A program made the position numbers and the translations under genes. Positions 19,993-22,269 of a DNA stretch of 64,000 nucleotides are shown in pieces (position 1 is the stretch's first letter; each line of letters opens with the position of its first letter). The stretch is from the NCBI RefSeq assembly GCF_900199205.1, contig NZ_OBMJ01000001.1, positions 930,001-994,000 of the forward strand. Direction: 5' to 3'. Origin of the DNA: Streptomyces sp. 1331.2. GTDB taxonomy: Bacteria > Actinomycetota > Actinomycetes > Streptomycetales > Streptomycetaceae. The notes under the pieces were generated by a model that saw only the letters and a program-made list of their open reading frames with translations, did not search any database and was not told where the DNA came from.

Positions 19993-21447
19993 TCACGGCC
20001 GGGCGCCCCGCTCCAGGGCGGCCCGGCCGGCGGCCTCCAGGACCGTCTCCTCCGAGGCCAGGTGGACCCGGCTGCTCAGCACGTCCCGCAAGTAGCGCTC
20101 CAGCGGGTGGCGCCGGCTCAGACCGGGGTTGCCGGTGAGGGCGACGGCCTGCTGGACGGCCGCCGTCGCGGCCCGGGTCGCCAGCAGGTGGGCCGGCCCG
20201 GTCCGGGCGACGGCGTCCGGCTCGCCCCGGTCCACCCGGGGTGCCAGCCCCTCGACCAGTTCCTCGGCGCCGATCAGCTGGGCCTCGATCTCGCCGAGGG
20301 CGCAGCGGTAGCGGGGCAGGGTGCCCAGCGGCTCGGTCAGATTGGCCGGAGTGCGCTGGCTGAGGAAGCGGACCAGCCAGGCCTCGGCGGCCCGGGCGAC
20401 CCCGATCGCCACCGCGGAGAGCGCCAGATCGTGCCAGGCGCGGGAGAGTTCGGCCTCCGACTCGGCCCCGATCCCGTTCCCGGCCCCGTTGCCCGGCTGG
20501 CGGCCGCCGAGGCCGAGCGCGAGCTCGGCGGGCACCCGGACCCGGTCCAGCACCACGTCGTGGCTGGCGCTGGCCCGCAGGCCGAGCTGGTCCCAGGTCG
20601 GGTCGATCTCCAGGCCCTCGCTCTCGCCGCGGACCAGGAAGGTGCCGATCCTCGGCTCCGGCTCGTCGGTCCGCGCGGTCACCGCCATCCAGGCCAGCGC
20701 CTCGGCGCCGGTGCAGTACGTCTTCCGGCCGGTCAGCAGCCAGCCGTCGCCGTCCCGGCGGGCGACCGTCTGCGGCAGCTCGCCCGGCTGCGAACCGGGC
20801 TCCGCTCGCAGCGTGTTGACCAGCGCGGGGCCGCGCCGGGACTCGGTGAGCAGCCGCCGGTACCCGGCCGTCGGCCAGTCGGCGCGGCGGGCCTGCTCGG
20901 CGTGCCGGAGCAGGGTGAAGGCGGTCACCACCGCCACCGAGGCGTCCCCGCGGCCGAGTTGGGACAGCACCCGGACGGTGTCGGCGAGCGTTCCGCCCGG
21001 CCCGCCGTACTTGCGGGAGACGGTGAGGGTGAGCAGGCCGGCCTCGTGGACCGCCTCGATGCCCTGGTACGGGAAGGTCGCGTCGCGGTCGTGCTCCTCG
21101 GCGCGGGCCGCGAGCAGGTCGACCACCCGGGGCAACCCGGCCAGGGCGGTCCCGACGGCCTCGCGCTCGGAGCGGTCGGCGGCATCGTCGGCTGGGACTG
21201 CGGGGACGACTGCGGCCGCGGGATGGTCCGGACCGGGTCGGCTCGAATCGAGTCGGCCTGAATCGGGCCGGGCGGAATCCGGGCGGTCTGCCGCGCTCCG
21301 GCCCGCGTCGGACTGGCCGGAAGTGGACGGCGGCGGTGCGGTCCGGGTCCGGCGGGAGGACGGGCGCCCGCCGGCCGTGCGGTCGCCGACCGCACGGTCC
21401 TCGGGTGAACGGTCGGCGGAGGAGCGGTTGGCGGCGCGGGTCGTCAT
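19993..21447 (-). CDS. acyl-CoA dehydrogenase-like flavoprotein (SfnB/DszC type)
   Basis: 484-residue acyl-CoA-dehydrogenase-fold protein. The catalytic domain spans about residues 95-484: Y-G-G-P-G-G-T-L-A-D-T, F-T-L-L-R-H-A-E, W-L-L-T-G-R-K-T-Y-C-T-G-A, W-D-Q-L-G-L-R-A-S-A-S-H-D-V-V-L, and a C-terminal S-R-R-H-P-L-E-R-Y-L-R-D-V. The helical C-terminus with R-H-P is typical of DszC/SfnB flavin-dependent monooxygenases rather than fatty-acid oxidation enzymes. The first 95 residues are a low-complexity Arg/Asp/Pro/Ser tail with R-P-D-S-x-R repeats. GGAGGC precedes the ATG. A Cys-containing leader peptide upstream points to organosulfur metabolism and sulfur-dependent control. Confidence 0.8.
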   Translation of the reverse strand: MTTRAANRSSADRSPEDRAVGDRTAGGRPSSRRTRTAPPPSTSGQSDAGRSAADRPDSARPDSGRLDSSRPGPDHPAAAVVPAVPADDAADRSEREAVGTALAGLPRVVDLLAARAEEHDRDATFPYQGIEAVHEAGLLTLTVSRKYGGPGGTLADTVRVLSQLGRGDASVAVVTAFTLLRHAEQARRADWPTAGYRRLLTESRRGPALVNTLRAEPGSQPGELPQTVARRDGDGWLLTGRKTYCTGAEALAWMAVTARTDEPEPRIGTFLVRGESEGLEIDPTWDQLGLRASASHDVVLDRVRVPAELALGLGGRQPGNGAGNGIGAESEAELSRAWHDLALSAVAIGVARAAEAWLVRFLSQRTPANLTEPLGTLPRYRCALGEIEAQLIGAEELVEGLAPRVDRGEPDAVARTGPAHLLATRAATAAVQQAVALTGNPGLSRRHPLERYLRDVLSSRVHLASEETVLEAAGRAALERGARP

Positions 21448-21613
21448 GATGCGGTGCCTCCGGGCGGCAGCGTGGGCTCGACGGATGCGGGCGGCACGCC
21501 GTACGGGCGCGCGGTACCGGCTGGCGGCCCCGGAGGTCAGTTCACGGCCCGCCCCCGGGATTCGGCGCCGACCGCAGGAGGTCGGCCGCCCGCCGCCGGG
21601 GGACGGATCCCCC

Positions 21614-21697
21614 TCAGCAGCCCGGACACGCCGCGCTGGCGGTGCGCCGCAGATCGAGGTGTCTACGACGGGTCAGCAGCGGGAGACGGCTCGGCAT
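21614..21697 (-). CDS. putative sulfur/cysteine leader peptide, 27 aa
   Basis: Very small ORF: M-P-S-R-L-P-L-L-T-R-R-R-H-L-D-L-R-R-T-A-S-A-A-C-P-G-C. The block R-R-H-L-D-L-x-R-x-A-S-A-x-C is the hallmark of streptomycete 'putative leader peptides' that I know upstream of sulfur-assimilation and sulfonate genes. The ATG lies 7 nt after a TACAGT -10 box, so the mRNA is probably leaderless. 166 bp of GC-rich, hairpin-prone RNA separate it from the flavoprotein gene. Cys codons just before the stop suggest translation-dependent sensing of cysteine; that mechanism is inferred. Confidence 0.8.
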   Translation of the reverse strand: MPSRLPLLTRRRHLDLRRTASAACPGC

Positions 21698-21704
21698 GTT
21701 CGCG

Positions 21705-21734
21705 ACTGTACGAACCGTTGATCGATACCGTCAA
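21705..21734 (-). promoter_or_regulatory. promoter of the leader-peptide transcript
   Basis: On the minus strand -35 TTGACG (21729-21734), 18-bp spacer, -10 TACAGT (21705-21710). The predicted +1 coincides with the ATG of the leader peptide. Confidence 0.8.
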
Positions 21735-21774
21735 GCAGCGTCCGGCCCCCGGGAGGGCCCCGCGAGGGCGCCGG

Positions 21775-22269
21775 TCAGCCCTGCTGGAACATGTCCGCCG
21801 GGAGCGGCTTCAGCAGCTGATACAGGTCGTCCGAAATCGGTCGGTCCCAGGACGCGATGGTGACCAGGACGCCGTCGCTGCGGCCGAACTGGGCGCAGAA
21901 CACGCGCTCCTCGCTGACCTTGACCTTCTTCACGATCAGCAGGTCGTCCCCGAGCATGACCGGGAAGTCCTCGGCCGAGACGAAGTCGACCGGCTCGTCG
22001 TTCTCCAGCGCCGCGAGCAGCTGCCGCACCTCGAAGGGCACGTCGTCGCCGGTCTCCCGGGCGGGCGAACCCTCGGGGAGGTTGCCGATGAACATCGCCG
22101 GGCCTCTGCCGCCGAACAGGTCGTAGCGCAGGAAAATCCCCTGGCAGGAGCCGTCCGGGCCGGTCATCATGGCCGCACCGAAGTCGCCGGGCCAGTCGCC
22201 CGGGTCCATCGCGAGCACGTCGAAGTCCGGGCCGGCGGGCTGTCCGGAGCGACGGCGGAGAAAAGACAT
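21775..22269 (-). CDS. conserved actinobacterial hypothetical protein
   Basis: 164-residue soluble protein, M-S-F-L-R-R-R-S-G at the start and D-L-Y-Q-L-L-K-P-L-P-A-D-M-F-Q-Q-G at the end. It looks like a conserved streptomycete hypothetical family; I do not know a function. Acidic, mixed alpha/beta, no signal peptide, no membrane span, no catalytic motif. A TACGAT -10-like box lies 6 nt before the ATG and no Shine-Dalgarno is present, so it is likely leaderless. It lies immediately upstream of the leader-peptide promoter but is a separate unit. Confidence 0.75.
   Translation of the reverse strand: MSFLRRRSGQPAGPDFDVLAMDPGDWPGDFGAAMMTGPDGSCQGIFLRYDLFGGRGPAMFIGNLPEGSPARETGDDVPFEVRQLLAALENDEPVDFVSAEDFPVMLGDDLLIVKKVKVSEERVFCAQFGRSDGVLVTIASWDRPISDDLYQLLKPLPADMFQQG

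Follow-up and report, generated by a model that had tools for sequence, protein, structure and literature searches.

Cysteine-responsive leaderless short ORFs of mycobacteria are said to have been set out by Canestrari et al. in 2020. In M. smegmatis, translation attenuation is reported for Cys-containing leaderless ORFs (in the secondary sources PMC9031893 and PMC13236596), and these mycobacterial relatives of the leader described here respond to cysteine via the speed of elongation (PMC9031893). Cys leader peptides have also been described for the cys operons of Mycobacterium and P. acnes and for B. longum cbs (Seliverstov et al. 2005, PMC1262725), and sensing via a Cys codon of a uORF is found in the cysS leader uORFC-8-2 (PMC8632094). 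At the level of protein families, the NCBIfam model NF042934 ("putative leader peptide", type cis_reg_atten, Actinobacteria) gathers leaders with an R-x-H-x-D-L-x-R-x-x-S-x-x-C layout and sulfur genes downstream.

The locus of interest lies on the minus strand of the window, i.e. the whole stretch of 64,000 nucleotides that was analysed, and adds one leader to this already known actinobacterial leader-peptide family. Its parts, in the order in which they would be read, are:

21705..21734, minus strand: promoter TTGACG-N18-TACAGT, the only sigma-70-like site found in 21300-21900
21614..21697, minus strand: leader ORF MPSRLPLLTRRRHLDLRRTASAACPGC followed by its stop, 27 codons (NF042934 match, conservation, coding signature)
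21626..21628, minus strand: TGT codon of the signature Cys24, the proposed sensor codon, invariant in orthologous leaders
21617..21619, minus strand: TGC codon of Cys27, non-conserved, kept in 4 of 24 orthologues
21448..21613, minus strand: untranslated region of 166 nt between leader and flavoprotein gene, without intrinsic terminator or Rfam match
21494..21512, minus strand: hairpin GCGCGCC-CGTAC-GGCGTGC, 32 nt upstream of the Shine-Dalgarno (SD) sequence, conserved, with weak covariation
21456..21471, minus strand: GCTGCCGCCCGGAGGC, with the SD within an invariant local hairpin (conservation, folding)
21457..21461, minus strand: SD GGAGG of the flavoprotein gene (sequence, alignment)
19993..21447, minus strand: flavoprotein of the acyl-CoA dehydrogenase fold, monooxygenase-like, a single-gene unit (Pfam, structure match, genomic contexts)

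The promoter that an earlier note on this DNA had placed at the ATG of a 27-codon ORF is present as claimed: its hexamers are TTGACG (21734-21729) and TACAGT (21710-21705), separated by 18 nt, and one such site occurs in 21300-21900 versus a mean of 0.0 in shuffles. The stretch TTGACGGTNTCGATCANNNNTTCGTAMAGTC, which comprises the promoter and its spacer, is kept nearly in full in an alignment of 26 loci. The leader ATG at 21697 follows the -10 hexamer by 7 nt, so that a leaderless start is predicted, and transcription from the ATG itself or from an adjacent base is plausible from this spacing. Within the same region, the spacer between -35 and -10, TTGACGGTNTCGATCA (21719-21734, minus strand, and the same place in L059-L084), is near-invariant beyond what a promoter needs and may be an operator.

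The leader peptide scores 32.3 bits with NF042934, above the curated cut-off of 27, in agreement with the streptomycete-type class proposed for it; its scores with the mycobacterial models NF042936 (Ms4527A, 20.2 bits) and NF042933 (Ms5788A, 13 bits) are below the cut-offs of 45. It shares the layout and the sulfur association of NF042934, from which it differs by its flavoprotein target gene, its CPGC tail and the lack of conservation of the second Cys. With the mycobacterial leaderless ORFs it has in common an ATG at the predicted start of transcription, Cys near the stop, sulfur genes downstream and the absence of a terminator; however, the polycysteine tract of those attenuators is replaced by two separated Cys codons, one of them conserved. 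Likewise, Cys codons near the stop and no terminator are also features of the cys leaders of Seliverstov et al. (PMC1262725), which, unlike this one, contain runs of Cys codons, whereas uORFC-8-2 differs in being alphaproteobacterial, in using a transcriptional terminator and in having UGC as the dominant codon (PMC8632094). Two cysteines, Cys24 and Cys27, are present in the C-terminal ...CPGC; among 24 aligned orthologues the first is invariant, while the second is not conserved, position 27 being Arg or His in most relatives, many of which carry Cys at position 3 instead.

Relatives of the locus are found in Kitasatospora and its neighbours. In 37 named homologue loci (L059-L095), the leader is intact in 27, broken in one (L080) and absent from nine. 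Where leader and promoter co-occur, both are nearly invariant, as is the SD context CCGGAGGC, and the rest of the spacer between leader and flavoprotein gene drifts in sequence and in length (156-319 nt across loci). The pattern of substitution is that of a protein: for 24 aligned orthologues pN/pS is 0.32 in the reading frame of the leader and rises to 1.47 and 2.08 when the frame is shifted, and variable columns at codon positions 1, 2 and 3 number 11, 6 and 20 (26 columns each). Judged by these alignments, the leader evolves as a coding sequence under purifying selection. Furthermore, in another Kitasatospora clade, represented by seven genomes (L120-L126), the TTGACG promoter is missing and the leader sits a few nt past the end of the gene before it; the Streptacidiphilus leader (L088) overlaps the stop codon of its upstream neighbour. 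Retention of the leader in these loci indicates that the peptide outlives the leaderless arrangement.

Some individual loci deserve separate mention. Translation of the leader in L120-L126 may depend on reinitiation. In L080 the promoter is kept and the leader frame is disrupted by an insertion, which makes this locus a natural mutant on which loss of control could be tested. In L084, about 70 nt bounded by the inverted repeats GTCGTCAAACCC and GGGTTTGACGAC lie directly behind the leader and resemble a small mobile-element insertion.

The host genome (Kitasatospora) contains five NF042934 matches over the cut-off, this locus included, plus weaker ones, and altogether at least eight further such leaders, most of them ahead of sulfur genes. 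When eight of these loci were read and the downstream proteins scanned for families, the genes behind the leaders were found to encode a nitrite/sulfite reductase, a protein of the rhodanese/mercaptopyruvate-sulfurtransferase type, a ThiS-family carrier followed by an apparent cysteine synthase, a cysteine-dioxygenase-domain protein, a 2OG-Fe(II) oxygenase, a cystine-type ABC binding protein, an SsuE-type FMN reductase (above cut-off) and an SsuD-like luciferase-family monooxygenase. A peptide search brought up the leader of the SsuD-like gene, for which the Ms4527A model alone gives a score, one below its cut-off. By inspection, a -10-like element precedes the start codon by a few nt in most of the other host leaders. 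The tie of this leader class to sulfur genes is thus borne out by the genes behind the host leaders, and looking for it ahead of sulfur genes elsewhere in the genome, as the earlier note suggested, gives a positive answer.

A further regularity of the class concerns the codon of the signature cysteine. Cys24 is always TGT in the aligned orthologues, and TGT is also used at the signature Cys of all eight paralogous host leaders. In a first class-wide sample TGT is present in 50 of 50 readable leaders, besides one contig-edge locus which is also TGT, and in a second in 38 of 39; for pooled distinct leaders across the class the count is 142 of 143, to be read with the caution that shared ancestry inflates such numbers. 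The leaders were searched for with a protein profile, which is blind to codon choice. The sole leader with TGC rather than TGT at this position is L223 (genome G300). Other cysteines of the pooled leaders are encoded by TGC and TGT in the ratio 155:50, and that at the DLC position in the ratio 51:3; as a background, TGT accounts for 16-18% in long ORFs of the same loci, and UGC for about 83% of cysteines in surrounding genes. Of the core positions, the signature Cys has a third-base G/C fraction of 0.01 and the remaining 13 have fractions of 0.67-0.99; the synonymous change of T to C, favoured by genomic GC pressure, is yet almost absent. Since the bases flanking this codon vary, the rule looks codon-level.

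Two tRNA-Cys genes were found in the host by a pattern search, which may miss some tRNAs, and both have the anticodon GCA, so that UGU would be decoded by wobble. Theory and data on attenuators indicate that the choice of the regulatory codon affects sensitivity, although the theory is based on different isoacceptors (PMC1183508). We infer that the speed of wobble decoding is the reason for UGU. That the sensor of the regulon is the codon and not only the amino acid, with slow or hypersensitive wobble decoding setting the switch and UGU held for this reason throughout the class (Actinomycetes), has in our judgement about an even chance of being correct. The UGU rule may be new, no earlier report having been found in a literature search with partial coverage of subscription papers.

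The flavoprotein gene starts with the ATG at 21447, and the first approximately 100 residues of the product are variable. The Pfam families Acyl-CoA_dh_N, M, 1 and 2 are recognized, with the N, M and C domains above the gathering score, and the AlphaFold model has a pLDDT of 87. In acyl-CoA dehydrogenases the catalytic Glu would be expected within an EGT motif, and the aligned C-terminus of the flavoprotein has no such motif. Among solved structures 5gj7 comes closest, together with 5z8t, titled flavin-containing monooxygenase, at 32% identity. The DszC/SfnB-like identity given to the protein in the earlier note is too specific, both scores being far below the curated equivalog cut-offs (SfnB, TIGR04022, 106.1 versus 430.9 bits; DszC, NF043015, 31.6 versus 850 bits). 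SfnB and DszC share with the flavoprotein the acyl-CoA-dehydrogenase fold of an oxidoreductase and the link to sulfur acquisition, whereas in the PDB it is most closely related to 5gj7 and 5z8t. The score with the 3-sulfinopropanoyl-CoA desulfinase family is also below cut-off.

The sulfur-scavenging role regarded as likely in the same note fares better. The Microbacteriaceae and Frankia homologues lie directly downstream of an alkanesulfonate-monooxygenase-like gene, that of Streptomyces sp. NBC_01446 is flanked on both sides by such a gene, a bisC-family S/N-oxide reductase also being present, and two others are downstream of a bisC-family reductase gene (L132) and of an aliphatic-sulfonate ABC ATPase (genome G052). 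These sulfur neighbours of distant homologues point to a role in organosulfur use, and the function of the flavoprotein in sulfur scavenging, with an organosulfur compound as the presumptive substrate, is well supported by these gene contexts.

The region behind the leader has the length of 166 nt that had been claimed and is foldable. A transcription attenuator with an intrinsic terminator is not supported, no terminator hairpin with a U-run being found in the region, and a riboswitch finds no match in Rfam. In the fold of minimum free energy, GCCCGGA at the SD can alternatively pair with TCCGGGC of leader codons 24-26, and in the fold predicted for the window a ribosome on Cys24 lowers the cost of opening the SD from 11.0 to 7.5 kcal/mol. 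However, when folding with a masking ribosome is extended to 26 orthologues, the mean gain is 1.0 kcal/mol versus 0.6 in block-shuffled spacers, which is not above the null, so that folding gives sequestration of the SD no support beyond the GC-rich background. Covariation in the orthologue alignment is consistent with both hairpins and is not above shuffles.

Cysteine-dependent translation attenuation is a plausible model, and the best one, by analogy with the mycobacterial family rather than from evidence of structure. The transcript would begin with the leader ATG or right beside it, and the short ORF would be translated by a 70S ribosome. A shortage of charged tRNA-Cys would make this ribosome pause at the UGU of Cys24, possibly aided by the conserved RRxHLDLRR nascent chain, and while it stands there the leader tail UCCGGGC could not pair with its partner GCCCGGA at the SD; with the SD open, the flavoprotein would be translated and organic sulfur scavenged. 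With plentiful cysteine, the ribosome would finish and leave, and the SD would be masked. That the locus belongs to a cysteine-responsive leader-peptide regulon, in which a pause at UGU24 unmasks the SD of the flavoprotein gene, is in our opinion probable, with the presence of one conserved Cys and no polycysteine tract, and the lack of the leader peptide at the flavoprotein gene in nine of 37 loci, standing against it.

Part of the same evidence can be read in other ways. The segment R-x-x-D-L-x-R is conserved class-wide at the amino acid level about 10 residues before the Cys, and it would be superfluous if the Cys codon did all the sensing; an arrest peptide may thus be considered, in which the basic RRxHLDLRR in the tunnel senses cysteine or another sulfur metabolite and the Cys codon merely sets the site of arrest. 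The near-invariant UGU instead suggests that the decoding of this codon is what matters, and the mycobacterial relatives answer cysteine through elongation speed (PMC9031893). We consider arrest sensing unlikely, though not far-fetched; it could be combined with the UGU24 pause, and the confidences given to the two overlap. Control of transcription by leader translation, with Rho terminating in the untranslated, C-rich 166 nt unless the ribosome pauses, would agree with the absence of an intrinsic terminator and has been proposed for the Mycobacterium cys leaders (PMC1262725), but the invariance of the SD and of its upstream arm fits control at initiation and the mode reported in M. smegmatis is translation attenuation (PMC13236596), so that we consider it rather improbable.

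The promoter could also be the point of control, with a sulfur-responsive transcription factor binding the spacer TTGACGGTNTCGATCA, almost invariant in 26 loci, and the leader being of little weight. This is difficult to reconcile with the clade L120-L126, which keeps the leader without the TTGACG-N18-TACAGT promoter, and with the purifying selection on the peptide (pN/pS); moreover, a search of the genome for the exact promoter spacer returns one copy only, i.e. a second that would denote a shared operator is absent, and we hold such an explanation to be quite improbable. As for a chance short ORF without function, its small size alone would speak for it, and it is contradicted by conservation, coding signature, family score and the UGU rule to the point of being negligible.

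With the UGU24 pause as the favoured reading, the cysteine leader regulon of Kitasatospora gains a flavoprotein of probable organosulfur use, and the enzyme group to which this flavoprotein belongs gains a sulfur-scavenging context. The UGU rule, in turn, singles out the sensing codon, so that a single synonymous change can probe the readout of tRNA-Cys charging: if codon sensing is true, replacement of UGU by UGC would blunt the cysteine response while leaving the peptide unchanged.
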